From positions 1-64,000 of the forward strand of contig NZ_CP022543.1 of NCBI RefSeq assembly GCF_002237555.1: 64,000 bases of DNA. The letters run 5' to 3'. The notes under the pieces are model-generated. The model was not told the origin of the DNA. It saw only the letters and a program-made list of their open reading frames with translations, and searched no databases. The stretch comes from Antarctobacter heliothermus. GTDB lineage: Bacteria > Pseudomonadota > Alphaproteobacteria > Rhodobacterales > Rhodobacteraceae. Below are positions 51,611 through 64,000 of this stretch, one piece after another. Position 1 is the first letter of the stretch, and each line of letters begins with the position of its first letter. The translations under genes were made by a program, and so were the position numbers.

Positions 51611-52891
51611 TCATGCCGCCTGCCCACTGAGCCTACCATAGAAGCTGCGCTCGAGATGCAGCTCCCCTGCCCCGGCTTTTTCGACCATGCCGCGCAGGTA
51701 TCCACCCGGCGAGGACACCTCTCCCGCGCTGTGCTTTTCGAAGACAAGCGCAAACGCGGCCGTGGCCACCTGGGTGCCCATTCGGTCCTGCGCCACGTTC
51801 CAGGCATGTTCCGAGATCCCGATCATCGGCCTGAGTTGACCGGCAACCCGGTGCAGATCGCCCCAATCCTTTAGGAACCCGCCCATATTGCGCGCCCAGG
51901 ATGCGAACTCCGGACAGGCCTGCATGATTGTCGGCAGGTCAAGCGCCGTCCGTTTCTTGCGCACCTCGGTCACCCAGTCTTCCAGCTCCCTGTCAACCCG
52001 CTCTTCGGCTGGACCTTTGGGCACCACACCCGCCGCTTCCTCTTTTTCAGAGGAATTACTAGATACAGGATTAAGTTGATTTGTAGTTAGTATATGAGGT
52101 TCAGAAATGACCTCCCTGGGGTTCATTTCTTGAGACTTCTTCATGGCTTGGACGTCTTTGTCATCAGTGTTTTCCACAGGTTCTGTCGCAACAGTCGCCT
52201 TGAGATAAGCCGCCTCGACCCGTTCCTGAAGCTCCTTGAACCACAACAGTAGTCGTTCCAACTGCTCAGAGCCGTCATGGCGACGTGGAAGCCGGTCCAG
52301 AAGCTCCTCAAAGAACCCCGTGAATTGCCTCCAGGGCCCACGCAGAGCGCTGCTGAGAGCTGCCTCGATCCGCGCACGGATCATCCGGCGCGCCACAGTG
52401 ATCTGGCGCTTCAGGCGCTGGCAGAGCTCGCGCTCGGCCTGCAACTCGGTATGAAGCTCCTCGAACTCCTCAACACGGGCTGAAAGCGGCGACAGGTCGA
52501 AGCCATAAGCCTCGACGATGCGGCCCTCGGTGTCCCTGCGGCCCCACCGCTTGCCATTGGGACTATCCTGGAAGGAGATCACGCCGATCTCAGCAAGACG
52601 CCGCGCGTGGCGCTTGAGCGCGGAGAGCGAGAACCCCGTCTGCCCCATCAGATAAGCGTTCGACGCCCAGACGATCGGACGCTGCCCCTCTTCCCAGTCC
52701 TGGGCCTGGGTAAACGCCCCGAGCGTGTCGAGGAGCATCATGTCGCCGGCCTTCAAGCCGATATGTGCCCCCACGCGCTTGAGCGCGACAAATGCTCGTG
52801 TTTTGGGTACTGCTACCCGTTCACCGGCTTGGGCAAGTTGCTCAGCAACCCCAAGACCCGGTGTTGGCTTGCGCCAACCTGTATGTTTCAT
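51611..52891 (-). CDS. repC: replication initiator RepC
   Basis: The 426-residue protein has the RepC N-terminal domain: 'RVGAHIGLKAGDMMLLDTLGAFTQ', 'IVWASNAYLMGQTGFSLSALKRHARRLAEIGVISFQDSPNGKRWG' and 'YGFDLSPL'. A coiled-coil/linker section at 145-290 follows, then a C-terminal winged helix ('LPTIMQACPEFASWARN', 'AAFALVFEKHSAGEVSSPGGYLRGMVEKA'). RepC binds an origin that lies within its own gene in this plasmid class. GGAGGTGA lies 10 bases before the ATG. It is preceded by the intergenic antisense RNA. Confidence 0.92.
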   Translation of the reverse strand: MKHTGWRKPTPGLGVAEQLAQAGERVAVPKTRAFVALKRVGAHIGLKAGDMMLLDTLGAFTQAQDWEEGQRPIVWASNAYLMGQTGFSLSALKRHARRLAEIGVISFQDSPNGKRWGRRDTEGRIVEAYGFDLSPLSARVEEFEELHTELQAERELCQRLKRQITVARRMIRARIEAALSSALRGPWRQFTGFFEELLDRLPRRHDGSEQLERLLLWFKELQERVEAAYLKATVATEPVENTDDKDVQAMKKSQEMNPREVISEPHILTTNQLNPVSSNSSEKEEAAGVVPKGPAEERVDRELEDWVTEVRKKRTALDLPTIMQACPEFASWARNMGGFLKDWGDLHRVAGQLRPMIGISEHAWNVAQDRMGTQVATAAFALVFEKHSAGEVSSPGGYLRGMVEKAGAGELHLERSFYGRLSGQAA

Positions 52892-52955
52892 GCCTGTATC
52901 TCACCTCCAGTTATGTGGAGGCAAAAGAAAGCCGTTCGCTCAGAAGCGTTCGTCG

Positions 52956-52984
52956 TTGACAGTGATTTCTGGGAGACCTATCTT
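52956..52984 (+). promoter_or_regulatory. promoter of the counter-transcribed RNA
   Basis: TTGACA (52956-52961) and TATCTT (52979-52984) are separated by 17 bases on the strand opposite to repABC, inside the repB-repC gap. A perfect -35 at this location is expected for the incompatibility ctRNA of repABC plasmids. Confidence 0.75.
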
Positions 52985-52990
52985 GAAGGC

Positions 52991-53040
52991 GACCAAACCA
53001 TTAAGATCAGCTCTCAGGCCACACCGCTTGGGGGCTTTTC
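52991..53040 (+). ncRNA. repABC counter-transcribed RNA (incompatibility antisense RNA)
   Basis: The RNA of about 50 nt is predicted from the promoter at 52956-52984 to a terminator hairpin: AGCTCTCA (53009-53016) pairs with TGGGGGCT (53029-53036, G-U pairs included) and is followed by a T-rich run, TTTCTTTT. The location between repB and repC, antisense to the repC leader, matches known ctRNAs that limit RepC synthesis and set incompatibility. The ends are estimates. Confidence 0.75.
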
Positions 53041-53117
53041 TTTTGCCTTTACTTCACTTTTTGTCCCTCTTTGCTCGTCGCCTCATCTTTGTTGAGAATA
53101 TTCCGCTGACATTGTCG

Positions 53118-54140
53118 TCAGTCGGTGTCCTTTTCCGAGCCTTCGGCGCTCAAGTAGTCGGCGACTAGATCTCCGAGCTTCTCAAGACGCTCTTGGTCAA
53201 TCGGCATACCTGCAACCTTGATGGATAAGTTGCCACCGATTGAAGTCGCCGAAAGATTGCGGTTGCCCACCTTGCGTTTGACCGTGAGCTTACGGGGCTT
53301 TGCCTTTGGTTTGGGCTTAGGTTTGCTCACCCTTTCCAAGCTCGCTAAGGCTGCTTGCAAGTCGCGAAAACTCATGTCGTAGACATTCTTGAACGCGTTC
53401 AAGATTTCATCCTGCGCGGCGAACACAGACCTTGCCCGCGAGACTAAGCTCTCATGCACGCCAATTTTCTTTGCGAAGGCCACAGCTGTCAGCTTTGCTT
53501 CGCCAGAAGCAAAGGTTTCATACATTTCACCAATCGAAACCAGCCGCTCAAATGGGCTAAGATTCTCGCGCTCCTCATTCTCGCGGAACCGCAGAAACAA
53601 CATCTCAAACTTGCTGTTCTCGGCGTCTCGCGCGACAGGCGAAGCTAGGATTGCACGAAGAGGTAAACCCAGCTCCGACGCGGCAGCCAGTCGGCGGCGT
53701 CCTGTAAGCATCACAAATGGAACGCCAGAGACGTTCGACGGCTCCAACGGATCCGGCTGCCAATCCGGATCCTTGGGCCACACCAGAATGGGGGTGTCCT
53801 GCCCATTCGACGCAATGCTGCTTACCAGAGACCTGAATGCTTCCTGAGACATCCAGTCTTGACGGCGGTCAGTCCCCATCGGATCTGAGATCTGGTCTGG
53901 CGACAGACTTATCTCGTGGCGGCCTTTTAGGATATCCGAACAAAGCTCGGCTCTGCTTCGCTCCACTGCGGCTTGCGACTGTGCAAGCGCCCCTGATTTC
54001 CAAGCGCTGCCGGCCCCCTTGAAAGGAGTGGAGACAGCATCACTCGGTTCTGCCCGGCCTTCGGGACCCGGCGTGCGCTCCATGGATGCTTCAGGGTTGG
54101 TAGCCTTGCTGACCAACGACCTAGGAATACTGCGTTTCAT
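53118..54140 (-). CDS. repB: partition protein RepB (ParB family)
   Basis: The 340-residue protein has the ParB/Sulfiredoxin-like N-terminal domain ('SPDQISDPMGTDRRQDW', 'LVSSIASNGQDTPILVWP', 'FVMLTGRRRLAAASELGLPLRAI'), then 'NEERENLSPFERLVSIGEMYE' and a helix-turn-helix ('TAVAFAKKIGVHESLVSRARSVFA'). The C-terminus is basic and Pro/Lys-rich. It binds parS-like palindromes; one lies inside this gene (53387-53404). It overlaps the repA stop (ATGA). Confidence 0.92.
   Translation of the reverse strand: MKRSIPRSLVSKATNPEASMERTPGPEGRAEPSDAVSTPFKGAGSAWKSGALAQSQAAVERSRAELCSDILKGRHEISLSPDQISDPMGTDRRQDWMSQEAFRSLVSSIASNGQDTPILVWPKDPDWQPDPLEPSNVSGVPFVMLTGRRRLAAASELGLPLRAILASPVARDAENSKFEMLFLRFRENEERENLSPFERLVSIGEMYETFASGEAKLTAVAFAKKIGVHESLVSRARSVFAAQDEILNAFKNVYDMSFRDLQAALASLERVSKPKPKPKAKPRKLTVKRKVGNRNLSATSIGGNLSIKVAGMPIDQERLEKLGDLVADYLSAEGSEKDTD
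53387..53404. repeat. 18-bp palindrome inside repB, second copy of the parS-like core
   Basis: TCTTGAACGCGTTCAAGA is a perfect palindrome with the same 18-bp core as the 38-bp palindrome upstream of repA (55626-55663). Its presence in a coding region, at the same codons 'LNAFK', argues for a conserved protein-binding site. It is the best candidate centromere-like site for RepB. Confidence 0.7.
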
Positions 54141-55492
54141 GCCTCGCCCTCGCCGTCATCTTCATAGAATTCGTCCATCCATGTATCAGCGTAGCCGCGT
54201 TCTAGTCCTGGCCAGAGCCGCGATACTATGGCGTCATTCACGGCATCGGCATTCGTGATGAACCGGTTGATCCCCTTGCGCTTTCCCGGCGTGTCCGGCT
54301 CATACTCGTATACGGACTGATAGACGTCTGACGCATTCGAGATCGCGTCGGAACGCAGATAAAAAACTGGCAGAATTTCCGTGGGGCAATGTTCCAGCAG
54401 GTTTCCGATGTGGTTGAGATCCTGCGCATTGGATCGTTGAACGATCGTAGGCAACAGCATGTTTGCACCGGTTCCGATTTCGATTCGTTCATGGGCCAGA
54501 ATGTGCTGAAGCATCCCCAGCAGGCCGGTCACAAAGGTCGACAGCGTTGCGATGTCGAACCCCTTCATGGTTTGCGGGATGACCAGCGAAGTCGAAGCAA
54601 TCACGTTATTCAGCTGAAAAAGTGTTAACGCAGGTTGATAGTCGATAATGATTACGTCGAGGGTCTCGGACAGCGCAGCATCCAGCCGCTGCTGATCGAC
54701 CTTGCCCTCGATTACCAATTCGTTGGGCAGCGTCTTTGGCGGGTGGCCGGCCTTCCACCGATCAATGGCATCGCGCAGGTAGCGATAGAAGCTCTTTCCG
54801 GCGGGGGCCTCGCGCACAAGGCGCGCAATCTGGATCTCACCCTCAGACGTTTCGCCATGAGCCGGCAGCAGACGCAGCCCCGGCCACGAGGTCTTGAGAA
54901 AGAAACTGTCGAGCGTCTGCGCATCGTGATCGGTGTATGGCGCATCTTCCGACTGGAAGAGGCCGGCAAAGTCCACCATAGAAGCGGTGTTTTCGTCGGG
55001 CATCTGTGGAAGTCCTTCCCCCCCGACAAAGTAGAGAGTTATCGTGCTTTGCGGGTCTGCGTCCATGACACCAACGCGCATCCCGTAATGCAAACTGAGA
55101 TACTGCGCAAAATGCGCTGCGCTCAGGCTTTTGGCGGTGCCGCCTTTCTGGCTGGCAAACGAGATGACGGGTAAGGGGGCGTCGGTCTTGCGCCAGGCTA
55201 GGTAGTCGTAGGGCCGCTTTGCCGAGGCCGCCAGAAGGGCCCGCATATGCATCAATTCGGAAAGCGTGAAAACGCGCTCTCTTCCAACATATTCGCCCGC
55301 AGGAAAGTCGTCGCTCGAATTGGCGAACTTGGTGAGATACTGAATACTAACGTTCAGAAACCTTGCGCACTGGCGCATTGACCACGTGCGTTTGATGCGC
55401 TGACGCAAGGTGAGTTCCTTGTTCACTGCCACCATCGTGCGCTCAAGCCCACGTGACAGGTCCGTCAAAAACTGTTCTAGACTACCGCTCAT
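54137..55492 (-). CDS. repA: partition ATPase RepA (ParA family)
   Basis: The 451-residue protein has a DNA-binding N-terminal part (residues 25-120, 'RQCARFLNVSIQYLTKFA') and a ParA ATPase with the deviant Walker motif 'FASQKGGTAKSLSAAHFAQYL', then 'VGVMDADPQSTITLYF' and 'LDVIIIDYQPALTLF'. The usual RepA motif is KGGSGKTT, so the Ala and Ser here are notable, but both Lys residues are kept. The start at 55492 has TTAGGA upstream; an in-frame extension to 56104 runs through the DUF736 pseudogene and is rejected. First gene of repABC; it should repress the operon with RepB. Confidence 0.9.
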   Translation of the reverse strand: MSGSLEQFLTDLSRGLERTMVAVNKELTLRQRIKRTWSMRQCARFLNVSIQYLTKFANSSDDFPAGEYVGRERVFTLSELMHMRALLAASAKRPYDYLAWRKTDAPLPVISFASQKGGTAKSLSAAHFAQYLSLHYGMRVGVMDADPQSTITLYFVGGEGLPQMPDENTASMVDFAGLFQSEDAPYTDHDAQTLDSFFLKTSWPGLRLLPAHGETSEGEIQIARLVREAPAGKSFYRYLRDAIDRWKAGHPPKTLPNELVIEGKVDQQRLDAALSETLDVIIIDYQPALTLFQLNNVIASTSLVIPQTMKGFDIATLSTFVTGLLGMLQHILAHERIEIGTGANMLLPTIVQRSNAQDLNHIGNLLEHCPTEILPVFYLRSDAISNASDVYQSVYEYEPDTPGKRKGINRFITNADAVNDAIVSRLWPGLERGYADTWMDEFYEDDGEGEA

Positions 55493-55625
55493 TCCTAAGC
55501 CCTGACTTCGGTTGGGTCCGAGTTCGACTCGATTCTGTTTCGATGGTAGCACGGTTTTGGAGGAAAGATAAAGATACCACGCGCCTACAGGTTTCAGGCG
55601 CTTATTTAGAAGCTCCGCGACCCCA

Positions 55626-55663
55626 AAAGCTCCAATCTTGAACGCGTTCAAGATTGGAGCTTT
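55626..55663. repeat. 38-bp perfect palindrome upstream of repA, candidate parS/operator
   Basis: Each 19-base arm is the exact complement of the other. The core is CTTGAACGCGTTCAAG and the outer arms extend through GCTCCAAT to AAAG. The core recurs in repB at 53387-53404. It lies 134 bases before the repA start. RepABC plasmids carry group-specific palindromes at this location that serve as RepB-binding partition sites. Confidence 0.75.
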
Positions 55664-55701
55664 GATGGGCCAATCCGCAGGGAGACGACCAGCCTTAGCC
55701 A

Positions 55702-56040
55702 TCAAGCGGCGTCTTTGGAATCCCAGGGGATAACCGCCTGCGGGGACAGATCGGCCTGGTTCGCGGCCTTGCCGAGGTTGGCGTTGAAACCGTGGTCGCG
55801 GATGGTCAGCATGTAGTAGACGGCGCCGGTCTCCTTGTTCTGCTTCTTCCAGATGCAGCCGCATTCGACCAGCTTGCCGCGTGGGGAGCGGCCGAGGACG
55901 CGGTGCGTGGGGGCCATCGGGTTCGCGCTTGCGACAGGTTCGACCGTGATGTCGAGGGCGAAGGTCAGGGTCGAGATAGAGCCGACGCCCTTGGCGGTTT
56001 AGATGTCGGCGCAAGTGAATTTGATGCAGTTTGTGGTCAT
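55702..56040 (-). pseudogene. DUF736-like gene with an in-frame stop codon
   Basis: From the ATG at 56040 the frame reads 'TTNCIKFTCADI', then TAA at codon 14 (56001-55999), then 'TAKGVGSISTLTFALDITVE', 'NPMAPTHRVLGRSPRGKLVE' and 'YYMLTIRDHGFNANLGKAAN' to 55702. The pattern fits small DUF736-type plasmid proteins of about 100 residues. Internal starts could still give a 71-residue product from 55917, lacking the first strands. It sits upstream of repA in the same direction. Confidence 0.6.
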
Positions 56041-56660
56041 TGCTCTTCTCCTTGTTTGCGTTGCAATGATGGTCACCTTGCAGCTGGCCAAGGCCCAATC
56101 GCACCGAAGGCGGAGCGGAGAGGGGCAGGCGTCGGTCTTTTTGCCTCGCTAGGAATGACCCGCAGGGTCAGGGAAAAAGATCCGGGACAACCTTTGTGGA
56201 CGGGACGACAGATGCGATCAGCATGTCATGCAATTCAGACAAAGGGAGAAGTGCGGTGGCCGCGAAGGAAACTGGGGGAACAGCTGAGAGAGATGTCGAG
56301 TGGCCTTGGCTCCTTTCTAAACTCATCGAAGATAAGACAAAGCCCCGACGTCAAAGTCGCATCCCCTAGGATCACTGACGCGTCCATTGTGGTCGCTGAA
56401 GCGCCCTCGATGCGGATGAGTGCTCGAGGTGAACAGAGCGTGAAACGAAAGGTCGGGTCGTCACTAGACACCGCAACCATCCAATCGCCCGAAATGACAG
56501 CCCGGCTGGCTGGTTCGGTCAGAAAATGCGACAGGACATTTGGCCAAGGGCCGCCGCTGCCAACGGGCAGGGCATACCGCCTAGCTTTGGCAGCCGACGC
56601 CGGCTTGCCCTTCCAGTGCTCATGCTATACGTCATTGACACATATGTCGCCGAAACCTAT
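56041..56660. other. gap between the repABC region and the toxin-antitoxin genes
   Basis: About 620 bases hold no convincing gene; the long plus-strand frame from 55792 is a shadow of the DUF736 pseudogene. Near its right end TTGACA (56635-56640) is 17 bases from TATATG (56658-56663), a plausible promoter for the toxin-antitoxin pair that would start within the first codons of the 56661 ATG and so favours the ATG at 56673. Confidence 0.45.
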
Positions 56661-57014
56661 ATGGAACTGACGATGACGCGATTGCAGACAGTGGTCGAAC
56701 TGCCCGAATTCCAAAGGCGCGCAAAGGCAATCATGTCGGACCGGGAGCGCGAGGCTGCGATCGACTTCATTGCAGCCAATCCGGAAGCTGGCGTCTCTCT
56801 TGGCGGCGGACTTCGGAAGGTCCGCATCCCGAGAGAGGGAGGTGGAAAGAGTGGCGGGTTCAGGACGGTGTATGTCTTTGGCGGGACCCGTATGCCGATC
56901 TTTCTGATCACGGTCTTCGCCAAGAATGAGAAAGCCAACCTGTCGAAGTTTGAGCAAGCCGCGGCGGTAGAGATGAGCAAAGCGCTTGTCGCGAAATATG
57001 GAGACGCTACATGA
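56661..57014 (+). CDS. RelE/HigB-type toxin
   Basis: The protein of about 113-117 residues has 'VVELPEFQRRAKAIMSDRERE', 'AAIDFIAANPEAGVSLGGGLRKVRI', 'GGKSGGFRTVYVFGGTRMPIFLITVFAKNEKANLS', the layout of HigB2/RelE-type ribosome-dependent RNases in toxin-first operons. Two starts are possible: 56661 or 56673 (MTRLQ). It overlaps the antitoxin start (ATGA). The pair is probably a plasmid-stability module. Confidence 0.85.
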   Translation: MELTMTRLQTVVELPEFQRRAKAIMSDREREAAIDFIAANPEAGVSLGGGLRKVRIPREGGGKSGGFRTVYVFGGTRMPIFLITVFAKNEKANLSKFEQAAAVEMSKALVAKYGDAT

Positions 57015-57304
57015 CTGCATTCGAATCCGTATCCAAGGGCCTGGAAGAGGCGCTGGCCTTCGCGAGTGGCGATTTGGCAGGCGCGAAGGTACATGAAGTG
57101 ACCGTTGCTGAGGTCGACGTCGCCGAAGTCCGGCAGCGAACCGGTCTGTCCCAGGCAGAATTCGCGAAGAGCATAGGCGTCGCGAAAGGCACACTGCTGA
57201 ATTGGGAACATGGGCGCCGCCACCCGACGGGTCCCGCACAAGTTCTTCTCGCCCTCATCGACAAGAAACCTTCCGTGGTCCAGGATTTGCTGCGCGGCGC
57301 GTGA
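57011..57304 (+). CDS. HigA/NadS-type antitoxin (HTH, Xre family)
   Basis: The 97-residue protein has a C-terminal Xre helix-turn-helix, 'RQRTGLSQAEFAKSIGVAKGTLLNWEHGRRHPTGPAQVLLALI', and an N-terminal toxin-binding helix. It is translationally coupled to the toxin gene. It likely represses its own promoter. Confidence 0.87.
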   Translation: MTAFESVSKGLEEALAFASGDLAGAKVHEVTVAEVDVAEVRQRTGLSQAEFAKSIGVAKGTLLNWEHGRRHPTGPAQVLLALIDKKPSVVQDLLRGA

Positions 57305-57538: not shown

Positions 57539-58347
57539 GGCTTTGTCAGGTTGCTGACGCCGCATCGGCGGGGTAGTTCTTTGTTATGCTGAACACCAAA
57601 GATTTGTCCCGGATCAAAGGCTTCCGGTTTCCACGGAGCGTGATTGGTTACGCCGTCCGGGCCTACCACCGCTTCGCTCTGAGCCTGCGCGACGTCGAAG
57701 ACCTGTTGGCTGAACGCGGGGTTACAGTGTCGTACGAAACGATCCGGGATTGGGTGAGCCGGTTCGGGCACCAGTTTGCCGCAAAAATCCGCCGTGACCG
57801 TTTAGCGCCGGCAGATAAATGGCATCTCGATGAAGTCGTTATCCAAATCAAGGGACGAAGCCACTGGCTTTAGCGGGCCGTCGACGCCAAGGGCGACGTG
57901 CTCGAAATCCTGATCCAGTCCCGACGCAACAAGGCCGCGGCCCGCCGATTTCTCCGCAAACTGATGAAACGTTGGGGCCAACCCCGTGTGCTGGTGACGG
58001 ACAAGCTGCGCTCTTACGGTGCAGCCAAGGCAGAAATCGCCCCCGGGATCGAGCACCGCCAGCACAAGGGTTTGAACAACCGAAGCGAGGCCTCCCACCG
58101 GCATACACGAAGACGCGAGAAGATCATGGGTCGGTTTAAATCCCCGCGCCAAGCACAGCAGTTTCTATCCGTGCATGATCAGGCCACCAGTCTGTTTCGC
58201 CCGAAGCGCCACCGCCTGTCCGCAGAATCTTACCGCCACGCTAGGAACGACGCACTCTCGCTTTGGACCGGTTATTCCAACGAATTGACTGCGTGATCTT
58301 CGCCGTCACCAATAAACTCAGCCTGACATCAGCAACCTGACAAAGCC
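57539..58347 (+). mobile_element. IS6-family element, copy 3 (809 bp), inactive
   Basis: It has the same 19-bp ends as copies 1, 2 and 4 (GGCTTTGTCAGGTTGCTGA at 57539 and complement ending 58347). The flanking 8-mers (AGTGCGAT left, CATTCTGT right) differ, so one side was replaced by deletion or recombination. It carries several substitutions relative to the other copies and is the oldest of the four. Confidence 0.93.
57586..58296 (+). pseudogene. IS6-family transposase (copy 3) with amber stop
   Basis: The 236-codon frame is interrupted at codon 96 by TAG (57871-57873), where the intact copies have TGG ('HWLWRAVDAK' becomes 'HWL*RAVDAK'). Other changes include Trp to Arg ('YAVRAYHRF') and Ser to Leu. 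The stop falls between the first and second catalytic Asp. Confidence 0.92.
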
Positions 58348-58824: not shown

Positions 58825-59871
58825 TCAGTATGGAAGACTATCAATTCGCCGTCTTGGATCGAAGATATCTAGCGCCAACCTAGACGCTTTGGCTGAAATG
58901 CGAGCTGTTGGGTCGTTTTCAAGGCTTTGGTTTACGGTGAATGTGCAAGCACCGTCACCACTATATCCTTGCTCATCGTATATCACTTGGAGGGACGTCG
59001 AAGGACCGTCTGTCGAGCCAGACCAAGTGGGCTTTTCTGATGTTTCATAATAGACGAAATCACCGTAGTTTTGTATCTCCAAAGCACTTTCGTCTCGTTC
59101 CCAAGCCACCCTATTTTTGCACGATTGGCGAAAGTCCGCCTCCGCTAGAAGTACCCCTTCGTAGTTGATTGGACCGATCTGAATACCCCACCGTCCCGCT
59201 TGATCCACGGTTTCTACAAACAGCATTTGATCAGATGGCGTCTCCAGCATCGACGCCATCAATGAAGGTGAAAGATGTACGCCATCTTCAAAATTTTTGT
59301 TCTGAACGAGTTGGCGAATAGTTATGGAAATCGTTCGGAGCGCAATTGCATAAGCAAAATTAATATCCTCTTCGGTGTAGCGTCCGGGTATAATATCAAG
59401 AGATGGAGCGTGAAAACCTAACTGCGCCGCTGGATGCATGATCCGCCATTTTCCATTTATCCCGTCACCAAAATAGCTACCAGACATAAAAAGTAGACTG
59501 CAGGCACTTTCACAGTTTGCACCCATTTCCAATTTGGTCCCAACAAGTTCAGATCGAAAAAAATCCGCTAGTTTGAGCGCTTCTATTAGAGAGCCCCCTG
59601 GACTGTTTAGGCAAACAACTGCATTCGACCAATTGGGAGTATCACGATTTTGTTTTACTTCCAGCCTATTAAAGGAAGATTTTAGAACTGGGATCATCCG
59701 ATCAGCGTCGCCCGTTTGGAATTTACCGGAAATTCGATGCGTGCAGGGGCGCATTGGATCTGGAAAACTGTAAGCGGGTTGTTGATAGCCCTGCAGTCCA
59801 AAGAATTCTAACTGCGCGGAACGGACTGGCGAAGCGAATAAAAGTGTTAGCAAAAGAGTAAAACGAACCAT
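58825..59871 (-). CDS. exported ClpP/crotonase-fold serine protease-like protein
   Basis: The 348-residue protein has a signal peptide ('MVRFTLLLTLLFASPVRSA'). The ClpP-like core shows 'VVCLNSPGGSLIEALKLADFFR', the nucleophile region 'GANCESACSLLFMSG' (Ser in Glu-Ser-Ala-Cys) and the His region 'AAQLGFHAPS', as in COG3904-type periplasmic proteins. A C-terminal 100 residues with Cys residues has no known fold. The lower GC content and AT-rich codons differ from neighbours, suggesting transfer. It stands alone between IS copies 3 and 4. Confidence 0.7.
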   Translation of the reverse strand: MVRFTLLLTLLFASPVRSAQLEFFGLQGYQQPAYSFPDPMRPCTHRISGKFQTGDADRMIPVLKSSFNRLEVKQNRDTPNWSNAVVCLNSPGGSLIEALKLADFFRSELVGTKLEMGANCESACSLLFMSGSYFGDGINGKWRIMHPAAQLGFHAPSLDIIPGRYTEEDINFAYAIALRTISITIRQLVQNKNFEDGVHLSPSLMASMLETPSDQMLFVETVDQAGRWGIQIGPINYEGVLLAEADFRQSCKNRVAWERDESALEIQNYGDFVYYETSEKPTWSGSTDGPSTSLQVIYDEQGYSGDGACTFTVNQSLENDPTARISAKASRLALDIFDPRRRIDSLPY

Positions 59872-60830: not shown

Positions 60831-61048
60831 GCAGGACGCGCAGACCCATTCTTGTGCGCGGAGGAAGTTACCATCAATTTCACTCACCTCTTGCGCTTCG
60901 TTGGACGCCATCGCTCGCTCCTCGGAGAGGCTGCCCAAAAAACATCATTAAATCGCCCATTTGTTCTCAAAAAGTGGGTACAAAAAATGGGGATGGTAAT
61001 GGTTGCCGTCAGCGATCAGATTACTGTTAAATCTTTGGGGGAATCTAC
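60831..61048. other. leader region of the HEPN-Hsp70 gene
   Basis: This 218-base, AT-richer stretch follows IS copy 4. A 66-codon open frame (60852-61052) runs through it but has no recognisable content and ends inside the next start; it may be a truncated gene. GGGGGAA at 61036-61042 is the likely ribosome binding site of the TTG start at 61049. Confidence 0.4.
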
Positions 61049-63928
61049 TTGAGTACTTGGCCTATTTTTCAGAAGGATATAGTTCAAGTCCTCTCCGTTT
61101 TCCTTTCGAACACACTTCCGGCGATAGGAGGTGATCGTTGGTGGACGTTTTACGTCTTAGATCAACTTAATCCCTATCAGGCTCATCGCCTTCAGAAAGC
61201 GCGGAAGCAGTCGCTCGGGCAATTGGACCTTGCGGCGCTTATTCGGGTGGCTTTGGCCAGTTGCGAGGAGATGATTGTCAAGAAATGCGTCACACGGGAG
61301 TTTCAGGATCTTCTGGCAGCGATGAAGGCTATACGGAACAGGCACGCACATTCCCCAGCCGATGGCATCCCAGTTTCAATTGAGGCGCGTGACATTGAAA
61401 TTAGTGCTGATTTTGTTGCGTGCATCGATAACTCTTCAATCCTACCCGACCGGCTTCGAGCTGCAGCGAAGCAACTCGTCGATCAGGCATCCATGTTGAA
61501 GCCCGCAAAGGCTGCAAAACCATCTGGAAAAAGCCCGCTTGCCGTGCTGCGCCATCCGGAACCACTGTTGCCGGAAAATACCCTTCAGAACAAGACGTAC
61601 ATCGGAATGGATTTTGGCACTTCTACTACCGTTCTGAGTGCAGTTTCACTAAAGGACGGAGCAGAACAGGTGGATGCTCTCATCATCGAGCAACCTGACC
61701 AGTATGGTGTGATGACGCGGAACCACTTGGTTAATACGGTCATCGCCTACGTCAACGAACGGCTGGTATTCGGGCGCGAAGCATTCCGCCAAAGATCTTT
61801 TCTCCACGAAGGACGCAATGTCTTTTCTTCGTTCAAAATGCGTCTAGGCATCGATCTTGGTCCAACTTACCCAGAGACGGCCCTGCGCGGTGGTGTGCTC
61901 AAGTCCGGGCACAAGATCGAGTCTGCCCAAGACGCCGCGGCAATGTTCTTCCGCTTCATCAAGAGAGGCGTGCAAACCGCGCTGGAAACCGCAAAATTGC
62001 CGAAAACGCCCGAGTGGTGTGTGTCTGTGCCCGCCTCATTTGAGGCAAACCAGCGCAAGGATCTGGAGACAGCTTTGCGAGCCGCGGGTATCGTTACCAC
62101 TTCGGTCGCTCTTATAGATGAACCGAACGCCGCTTTTCTCTCCTACCTCTTCGAGACATCGCGAGGGTTGAACAGTAGTGAGCTTCTCGAAGTACTGCGC
62201 GAACGCCCTATCAACGTGCTGGTCTACGATTTTGGTGCCGGCACCTGCGACATTTCCGTGCTTCGTCTGGAGAGCCGTGCAGAGGGGATCGAGTCTCGAA
62301 ACTTGGCGGTGTCGCGGTTTACTGCTCTAGGCGGCGACGATATCGATCTCGCTCTTGCGCGTCAGGTGCTGCTGCCGCAACTCATCGAATCGTCCGCTCC
62401 TGTGCAACCGTCTCAACGGGATATCGAAGAGCGGATCCTGCCAAGGCTTCAGCCCACAGCAGAGCTACTGAAGATCCGACTTCTTGAGCACGCACGCGAC
62501 AAGGGCATCGAGACGACCGACGGGCTGCGAGAGGCCAGTGACCTGCGGGTGACTGCTCTGGATATTGAAAGCTTCAAGATAGGAGCCGATGAGTTCCATC
62601 TGCCGAAACCCGGTGCCACGCTCATTGACCTTGCCACTGCGCTCGAGCCATTCACCCGATTTCCAGTGCCAGCGGACGATCGCACTGCACATGTTTTTAC
62701 CCCGGTCCAGGATGCTCTGGAAAAGTCTGGACTTACTGCGGACGATCTAGACGGCGTTCTCTTCATAGGTGGCAGCAGTGAAAACACTATCGTCCGCCAT
62801 ACTGTGATGAAGGCGCTTGGGGGGACAGTCGAAGCGATCGTGCCAAAGGATCTTCGAAGCCATGTCTCAAAGGGTGCGGCTCTGCATTCATACTGGTACA
62901 ATGGTTGTGGCTTTGACTTCATACAACCGATAACTTCTGAACCGATCCTCGCGTTGGTCCGAGGTGGCGCGTTTGAAACGATCCTTCCGGCATCCACTCC
63001 GCTGCCAAGCCAAGTGACTATAAGTGATGAACTTATCGTGGAAGACGAGGGGCAGAAACGCATCGAGATACCGATCTGTGTCTCAACAGCAGATAAGCTG
63101 CTTGGCGTAATCGTGATCGATTCGCCAGACCGGGAGGGCTTTCAGCGTGGCACCAGAATTTCACTTTCCGCCAGCATTTCGCGTGACAAGCTGCTCGTGG
63201 TTGAGGCGAGGATCGGAGATCGCGTCGCAAAAACGGCCATGCTCAACCCGATGGCCAACCGACCCGTATCGGAAACCGAGGCAAGACTGCTAAAGGCGAA
63301 ACAGGCTTTCAACGAAGTGCTTTTGAAATACGGCCCGCGCCCGCCGGCGGCAAAAGTAATTGCTTATGCGAACGCCGCCGAATCTGCAGGCGATCATCAA
63401 CTTGCCGCTGAACTGTTTCAGAAAGCTGAGCAGCTTGATCTGACGCGCAACTTTGCTGTGTCTATCACTTATAACTATGCTCGCGCTGGAAAACATCAAC
63501 TAAAGGAACTGTGGGCGCGGAAGGCCTACGAGAGAGAGCCCTCGGCTGCTGCGGCCTACAATTTGGCCATCAATGTTGAAGGTTCGGACGAGAAGGAAGC
63601 ATTATTCCGCGAAGCGCTTCGCTATGAGCCGGGCTACCACTCCGCTACCCTCGCTCTTGGGCGGATATTGTTGAGGAAAGGGGATCCAGAAGGGACTGAA
63701 CTCCTAGAGCGATCCGCTAAGAAGCTCAGCCAGCAGCTGAGCACACACAATATTGATGAGGGCGGATGCCGCGTGCTGGCAAGTGTATCACGCGAACTTG
63801 GCCAGACGGATGTTGCTCAGGAAGCTGAAGCTCGTGCAAAGACGCTTTCACCCAAGCAGCAGACATCCGCGGCGTATTCCGAAAATAACCTCGCCGCTCG
63901 ATCCAGAGCCGCGATAGAAGAAGCGTGA
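61049..63928 (+). CDS. HEPN (Swt1-like)-Hsp70-TPR fusion protein
   Basis: The 959-residue protein has three parts. Residues 1-110 resemble a Swt1-type HEPN domain: 'GGDRWWTFYVLDQLN', 'LDLAALIRVALASCEEM' and the RNase motif RNRHAH (96-101, fitting RNxxxH). From residue 183 an Hsp70 ATPase follows: 'YIGMDFGTSTTVLSAV', 'ALIDEPNAAFLSYL', 'VLVYDFGAGTCDISVLRLE' and 'GVLFIGGSSENTIVR'. From about 740 to 930 alpha-helical TPR-like repeats follow ('AAELFQKAEQLDL', 'ALRYEPGYHSATLALGRILL'). TTG is the start, because an in-frame TAA lies 7 codons upstream. A cytosolic ATP-dependent sensor with RNase output is the inference. The next gene begins 3 bases later. Confidence 0.8.
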   Translation: MSTWPIFQKDIVQVLSVFLSNTLPAIGGDRWWTFYVLDQLNPYQAHRLQKARKQSLGQLDLAALIRVALASCEEMIVKKCVTREFQDLLAAMKAIRNRHAHSPADGIPVSIEARDIEISADFVACIDNSSILPDRLRAAAKQLVDQASMLKPAKAAKPSGKSPLAVLRHPEPLLPENTLQNKTYIGMDFGTSTTVLSAVSLKDGAEQVDALIIEQPDQYGVMTRNHLVNTVIAYVNERLVFGREAFRQRSFLHEGRNVFSSFKMRLGIDLGPTYPETALRGGVLKSGHKIESAQDAAAMFFRFIKRGVQTALETAKLPKTPEWCVSVPASFEANQRKDLETALRAAGIVTTSVALIDEPNAAFLSYLFETSRGLNSSELLEVLRERPINVLVYDFGAGTCDISVLRLESRAEGIESRNLAVSRFTALGGDDIDLALARQVLLPQLIESSAPVQPSQRDIEERILPRLQPTAELLKIRLLEHARDKGIETTDGLREASDLRVTALDIESFKIGADEFHLPKPGATLIDLATALEPFTRFPVPADDRTAHVFTPVQDALEKSGLTADDLDGVLFIGGSSENTIVRHTVMKALGGTVEAIVPKDLRSHVSKGAALHSYWYNGCGFDFIQPITSEPILALVRGGAFETILPASTPLPSQVTISDELIVEDEGQKRIEIPICVSTADKLLGVIVIDSPDREGFQRGTRISLSASISRDKLLVVEARIGDRVAKTAMLNPMANRPVSETEARLLKAKQAFNEVLLKYGPRPPAAKVIAYANAAESAGDHQLAAELFQKAEQLDLTRNFAVSITYNYARAGKHQLKELWARKAYEREPSAAAAYNLAINVEGSDEKEALFREALRYEPGYHSATLALGRILLRKGDPEGTELLERSAKKLSQQLSTHNIDEGGCRVLASVSRELGQTDVAQEAEARAKTLSPKQQTSAAYSENNLAARSRAAIEEA

Positions 63929-63931
63929 ACG

Positions 63932-64000
63932 ATGGGCTGGTATGTTCCCTTTTCAAGCCTGAGCCAAACGCAAGAATCGATCATCAAAGAGATCACACGC
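63932..64000 (+). CDS. start of a downstream gene (possible SF1 helicase or ATPase), cut by window end
   Basis: The ATG at 63932, 3 bases after the previous stop, opens a frame reading 'MGWYVPFSSLSQTQESIIKE' to the window end. The 'LSQTQ...II' pattern resembles a Q-motif at the N-terminus of UvrD/Rep-type helicases, but 23 residues are too few to decide. Tight spacing means it is co-transcribed with the HEPN-Hsp70 gene. Confidence 0.55.
   Translation, partial: MGWYVPFSSLSQTQESIIKEITR

Follow-up and report, generated by a model that had tools for sequence, protein, structure and literature searches.

The locus lies at the end of the window, by which is meant the whole stretch of DNA analysed, namely bases 1 to 64,000 of an 81,447-base contig in a genome of 5.3 Mb. 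Gene A is a single intact ORF of 959 codons. Its product joins an N-terminal HEPN domain to an Hsp70 nucleotide-binding domain, the beta part of an Hsp70 substrate-binding domain, and a set of TPR-like helices (Table 1). This HEPN-Hsp70-TPR fusion had been proposed in the first-pass annotation of the window and is borne out by profile matches, a structure model and intact motifs.

Table 1. Features of the locus, with positions in the window unless the contig is named.
Feature	Position	Strand	Remarks
IS6-type transposase ORF, intact, 236 aa	60069..60779	+	borders the block; IS family assigned by eye
Block of 5.7 kb	contig 60831-66505 (window part 60831..64000)	+	
Gene A, HEPN - Hsp70 (NBD + SBD-beta) - TPR-like, 959 aa	61049..63928	+	TTG start; stop codon included
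HEPN (Swt1-like) domain, residues 1-149	61049..61495	+	model all-helical
RNRHAH (R-x4-H) predicted RNase motif, residues 96-101	61334..61351	+	
Hsp70 nucleotide-binding domain, residues 181-621	61589..62911	+	
Hsp70 substrate-binding domain, beta part, residues about 630-735	62936..63253	+	
TPR-like helices, residues 742-933	63272..63847	+	at the position of the Hsp70 lid
Gene B, SF1 UvrD/Rep-like helicase, 387 aa	contig 63932-65095 (window part 63932..64000)	+	
Gene C, 456 aa	contig 65110-66480		directly after gene B

The Swt1-like HEPN profile PF18731 matched all 11 of the N-termini scanned, taken from 11 of the 17 HEPN-type loci, at E≤0.1 with a best value of 4.8e-17; the window protein alone matched at 6.5e-5, below the curated Pfam cut-off. 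These matches and the helical model agree with the HEPN fold that had been expected of the N-terminus. The RNRHAH motif sits at the end of a modelled helix (residues 83-100). Loss of the motif among homologues, which would have spoken against the reading, did not materialise, as R96 and H101 are both retained in 44 of 48 aligned proteins and the motif is lost in four. In an 11-row alignment of HEPN domains R-N-R-x-A-H is invariant, and four divergent HEPN-type loci outside this alignment keep R-x4-H and not all of the other motif letters. A structure search with the whole protein gave a match list filled by the Hsp70 part rather than by HEPN, and a HEPN profile search of PDB sequences returned HepS alone, at E=0.91. 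Residues 150-165 form a loose linker in the model.

The nucleotide-binding domain matches PF00012 at E=1.7e-20, and the phosphate-1, connect-1, phosphate-2 and adenosine motifs are near-invariant in the 48 aligned proteins. Residues 181-737 of the model superpose on residues 1-477 of DnaK with an rmsd of 3.1 over 467 residues. The alignment with DnaK ends at residue 737, and the TPR-like helices occupy the region of the lid (SBD-alpha). Gene A differs from DnaK and HscA, to which it is about 22% identical, in these helices, in its N-terminal HEPN domain and in its operon with a helicase.

Genes A and B are separated by 3 bp and genes B and C by 14 bp, forming a tight operon that continues past the end of the window. 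The first-pass annotation had coupled gene A to a second gene that might be a Q-motif helicase. The coupling to a helicase holds, but the type is corrected to UvrD/Rep-like SF1, and reading past the window turns the pair into a three-gene operon. Gene B matches the UvrD_C and UvrD-helicase families of Pfam. Walker A and DExQ are present in 67 of 67 B proteins; a regular expression for motif VI fits 34 of the 67, and the aligned arginine is present in 64. Gene C has no Pfam match above the cut-off and no PADLOC match. Its model is confident for about residues 1-340 and disordered for 342-456, and the N-terminal domain bears a weak structural likeness to proteins that we take to be ART-fold. Gene C is a new protein family with a confident model and without a clear known fold. 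Promoter and terminator scans of the locus gave sites no commoner than in shuffled sequence.

The 5.7-kb block that carries the three genes is 92% identical to a locus of Roseibaca ekhonensis (L003). It starts just past the IS6-type ORF and stops just past gene C; the cassette forms a discrete block flanked by insertion elements. Gene C is followed by transposase-type genes and then by a very long RTX-repeat ORF (named by eye); at L002:9820-17979 a minus-strand ORF of 2719 aa with RTX-type Gly/Asp-rich repeats lies downstream of insertion elements. The intact IS6-type copy has a near-alike companion at 57586-58296 that is split into two ORFs, and the two bracket a minus-strand ORF of 348 aa (58825-59871). 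Three minus-strand ORFs at window positions 51611-56104 stand in a repC-repB-repA-like order that, judged by eye, points to the 81-kb contig being a repABC plasmid. Overlapping small genes at 56526-57304 have the look, again by eye, of a RelE/HigB-type toxin and a HigA-type antitoxin.

A homologue scan of one genome per species yielded 120 relatives of gene A. The best 80 of the 120 loci were kept and, with the own locus, make up a sample of 81 A genes, among which are a few near-duplicate loci and five A genes that are short or cut. By tblastn, gene B lies directly behind A in 66 of the 68 loci with at least 1300 bp downstream, the exceptions being L079, where the A gene is truncated, and L080, where it is of a NERD type. 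Gene C follows B in 62 of the 63 loci with room for it (including L022, L024, L032 and L043), with L027 as the exception; in L043 gene B is broken into two ORFs. Used alone (>45 bits), tblastn detects C in 54 of 62 loci and misses some because C diverges fast. The first 59 C proteins form one BLAST-connected family at E≤1e-4. By record title the A-B-C loci fall in eleven phyla, many of the records being metagenome bins for which single phylum labels may be wrong. The A-B-C cassette is a real, complete and conserved system, and the first-pass annotation had described one variant of its first gene.

The surroundings of the cassette are variable. The lists of flanking genes, the sets of neighbours and the search with the HEPN profile were all based on a table of the longest ORFs, in which antisense ORFs may dilute the results. 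Within 5 kb of the cassette each flanking family is found in at most four of the 81 loci, and no recurrent fourth gene was found in more than four loci among neighbours of at least 180 aa within the same distance; the conserved housekeeping neighbourhood that would have told against a defence or stress system is thus absent. Gene A occurs in 2 of 292 genomes of the order, the own genome included (E≤1e-60). The accessory location claimed earlier agrees with this patchy presence and with the variable flanks, which also led to the rejection of a housekeeping chaperone. A quick tree was built from 74 Hsp70-TPR cores, with seven short, duplicate or start-motif-unclear rows omitted. Its topology places one actinobacterial copy beside a gammaproteobacterial copy and one Bacillota copy inside Bacteroidota, as expected of horizontal transfer.

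Relatives of gene A were also sought in viral, phage and plasmid records. In IMG/VR, 2 of 27 candidate stretches encode such relatives, the good one being L114. On this contig, filed as viral, gene-transfer-agent or prophage-type tail genes (by eye; L114:181-7463) lie upstream of an 86% identical A gene, and carriage by a phage is therefore not demonstrated. A phage gene was rejected as an explanation. Phage records gave 13 matches, all to Hsp70 regions at 23-29% identity. Among plasmid records 116 match gene A, none of them across more than 80% of the query, and the best is pPP6 of Persicobacter psychrovividus (L083), with a HEPN-less A of 785 aa and a B of 388 aa. The third gene of pPP6 (596 aa) has no BLAST match to C at 1e-3, and a WYL-domain gene lies about 3.9 kb upstream of the A/B operon. 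A search of plasmid records with gene C found nothing, which says little since C diverges fast. Two HEPN-type loci from different phyla (L007:3543-6895 and L008:6551-10005) have a common upstream gene order; their nearest upstream genes are 59% identical, and one L007 gene matches PADLOC PDC-M33A.

The N-terminus of gene A is the changeable part of the system. By profile, HEPN is present in 17 of the 81 A proteins, 11 of the 17 having been used to build the profile, and most of the others begin almost directly at the Hsp70 domain. Among the 59 HEPN-less A proteins, 16 have a short conserved SLFPA-R peptide ahead of the Hsp70 domain, L039, L043 and L058 being examples. L022 and L024 have a Ser/Thr-kinase-like N-terminus (by eye) together with complete B and C genes; in both, the A and B genes have an overlap of 4 bases, and their C genes match the C family at 1e-17 and 1e-13. 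L080:9338-12319, from a Bacteroidetes bin, starts with a domain that by eye is NERD-like, a nuclease type, and nothing in the locus matches B or C. No separate HEPN gene was found in the HEPN-less loci, as all 17 HEPN profile matches are A proteins. On the tree the four N-terminal states require 6 changes, against a mean of 16.7 when shuffled. The HEPN label requires 5, of which 3 are forced by well-supported branches, and the two kinase-type proteins have a HEPN-bearing protein as their sister. The N-terminal domain has therefore been exchanged repeatedly while the core stayed constant.

The retention of B and C in loci where HEPN is missing or substituted means that the two genes serve the Hsp70 core as well as the nuclease. 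The first-pass annotation had pointed to HEPN RNases as effectors of many antiviral and toxin systems. The domain is present, but with HEPN in just 17 of the 81 proteins the system must have at least one other output; the lost motif in four aligned proteins and the absence of HEPN from most A proteins show further that an RNase output is not essential to the core. The variable N-termini (HEPN, kinase-like or none) point to a conserved unit of Hsp70-TPR, helicase and C with changeable outputs, a reading strengthened by the kinase-type loci that carry both B and C. The same facts bear on a plasmid addiction module of toxin-antitoxin kind, in which the HEPN-bearing A protein would be a toxin restrained by B or C. 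HEPN domains are frequently toxins according to the accessible part of PMC3710099, and the window copy lies near plasmid-type genes (by eye). However, the three genes are large, and B and C persist without HEPN, as their overall frequencies given above show when set against 17 HEPN-bearing A proteins in 81, and are therefore not mainly HEPN antidotes, which makes such a module highly improbable.

The genes around the cassette were compared with defence families. The neighbour set comprised 118 of 273 eligible proteins (180-1150 aa; 50,000 residues), taken nearest first within about 1.8 kb of complete A-B-C loci, with six own or near-duplicate loci left out. The control, a crude one, comprised 118 of 177 ORFs (47,730 residues) from hand-picked stretches of the same locus-bearing genomes. 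At E≤1e-8 the 118 neighbours matched 245 PADLOC families and the 118 controls 97, numbers that count families and not proteins, as one protein can match many models; the ZacC protein of L003, for example, also matches DrmD and others. Among the matches listed, the neighbours included ZacC, DrmD, BrxL, BrxC, SspC, type IIG and type I modification enzymes, and reverse transcriptase. The control included methyltransferases, AbiE (AbiEi and AbiEii), RtcR, a type I restriction enzyme and PDC-S01 among its listed matches, and so also contained defence-type proteins. Co-occurrence with defence genes, proposed earlier as a check, may be reflected in the larger number of families near the cassette.

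Of 10 hand-picked neighbours from seven HEPN-type loci, 6 gave a match in single-protein PADLOC checks (1e-5) and 4 gave none, with no match at L019 and a weak one at L005. Beside HEPN-less loci 3 of 10 hand-picked neighbours matched and 7 gave nothing, one of the three matches being PDC-S01, which is also in the control. Examples of the matches are ZacC, at 5.5e-109, behind the closest relative, L003, and a WYL protein that directly precedes L028. Gene A itself matches only PDC-M61B in PADLOC, from the candidate system PDC-M61 with its Hsp70-like component, over a 62-residue stretch (390-451) at 24.5 bits. Patchy presence, flanks and neighbour matches support, short of proof, a role of the cassette that is accessory and, probably, defensive.

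The cassette might instead be an accessory stress or genome-maintenance module, in which a specialised Hsp70 would remodel complexes that helicase B loads onto DNA or RNA, for instance during repair, recombination or the upkeep of mobile elements, and HEPN would trim RNA. UvrD/Rep-type helicases often function in repair, the Hsp70 ATP motifs are intact, most relatives are without a nuclease domain, and the 81-kb contig of the window copy also carries insertion elements and genes of plasmid type (by eye). The restriction to two genomes of the order, the variable flanks and the excess of defence-type families beside the cassette over the control count against a module of this kind, which is regarded as unlikely.

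No published description of the A-B-C cassette was found in a literature search that reached few subscription journals and not bioRxiv, and within that search the earlier statement that no characterised system has this architecture stands. The nearest published idea found is the Type III CoCoNuT (CnuH, CnuE, CnuD/CnuCD), for which the accessible part of PMC11090510 describes Hsp70-like NBD and SBD, an SF1 helicase and, in Type III-A, HEPN, the same kinds of parts as in the cassette. According to the same portion of that source, CoCoNuTs combine a McrB-type GTPase core with a UPF1-like helicase that carries a large helical insertion, and the Walker A-like motif of the CnuD Hsp70 is degenerate. 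In contrast, genes A, B and C gave no match to a McrB-type NxD GTPase and the next genes look like insertion elements, gene B is a compact, UvrD/Rep-like protein, and the phosphate-binding motifs of the Hsp70 part are intact. HEPN is fused to Hsp70 in the cassette, and no CoCoNuT counterpart of gene C was found in that part of the source. By the features tested, and as far as the accessible text describes CoCoNuTs, the cassette is not a member of this group. A surveillance of RNA like that of CoCoNuTs, in which the Hsp70-like part would bind stalled ribosomes or RNA that is viral or aberrant, leaving the unwinding to the SF1 helicase and the cutting to HEPN, shares its kinds of parts with the Type III systems (PMC11090510, accessible part) and is nevertheless decidedly unlikely in view of the missing GTPase match, the compact helicase and the intact ATP motifs. 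The latter, set against the degenerate motif of CnuD, favour a working chaperone cycle.

Other known systems share single parts. The accessible part of PMC3710099 describes fusions of Abi2/Swt1-group HEPN to an AAA+ ATPase and of HEPN to SF-I helicases. Gene A is like this group in its Swt1-like HEPN, its R-x4-6-H motif and its fusion to an NTPase, and differs in that a HEPN-Hsp70 fusion was not found in that text, where the only mention of Hsp70 found concerns its recruitment by the DnaJ domain of sacsin. Gabija (GajAB) has in GajB a UvrD-type helicase that is the best PADLOC match of gene B (E=3e-17, partial); however, A and C have no match to a GajA-type (OLD) nuclease, and B is shorter than the GajB models. 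Predicted GTPase-centred conflict operons include HSP70 proteins, some with TPR or DnaJ partners (PMC7159879, accessible part), and so resemble the cassette in HSP70 proteins that are in some cases partnered by TPR, whereas genes A, B and C are without a Pfam GTPase match above the cut-off. The cassette consists of known parts in a combination unreported in the literature found, with a new family in the third place.

Taken on its sequence and modelled structure, the locus in the window is read, with a probability of about 0.6, as a mobile conflict system of three genes, here in its HEPN-bearing form and most likely anti-phage. The conserved ATP motifs, the peptide-binding beta domain and the linker-joined effector-type domain suggest an ATP-driven switch of HEPN pairing, and from these features we infer the cue, the gating, the RNase activity and the protective effect in the following form. 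Gene A would be the switch, and its Hsp70 part, with the lid replaced by TPR-like repeats, would bind a cue, which may be a polypeptide, misfolded or specific to infection, or else a nucleic-acid complex that helicase B delivers through an adaptor, C; the helicase and protein C would probably supply or read this cue. Turnover of ATP would alter the shape or assembly of A and bring the HEPN domains into pairs, and the paired R-H site could then cut cellular or phage RNA, so that growth or phage production would stop. Other members have a kinase-like N-terminus or no N-terminal domain, which implies that the core has outputs besides HEPN.

A wider proposal is more tentative and falls a little short of even odds. 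The cassette may represent a widespread immune class, unnamed in the literature found, in which the sensor and trigger would be an Hsp70 cycle rather than a STAND, CARF or GTPase switch. The Hsp70-TPR part would read polypeptide or nucleoprotein cues together with a dedicated SF1 helicase and family C (possibly an ART-fold adaptor), HEPN RNase and kinase outputs would be swappable, and the NERD-nuclease form would be a stand-alone offshoot. If this is true, a chaperone of protein folding would form the regulatory core of an immune system, being more than its helper, and the way in which cells distinguish their own complexes from those that are damaged or made by phage would become testable. 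The cassette is compact, has conserved catalytic motifs in A and B, and offers natural HEPN-plus, HEPN-minus, kinase and motif-lost variants for comparison. The kinase-type loci (L022:8861-15061 and L024:400-6810) come from Vicinamibacterales/Acidobacteria bins, and in them the kinase-like part, with a start that is possibly overlong, extends for about 390 aa before the Hsp70 domain.
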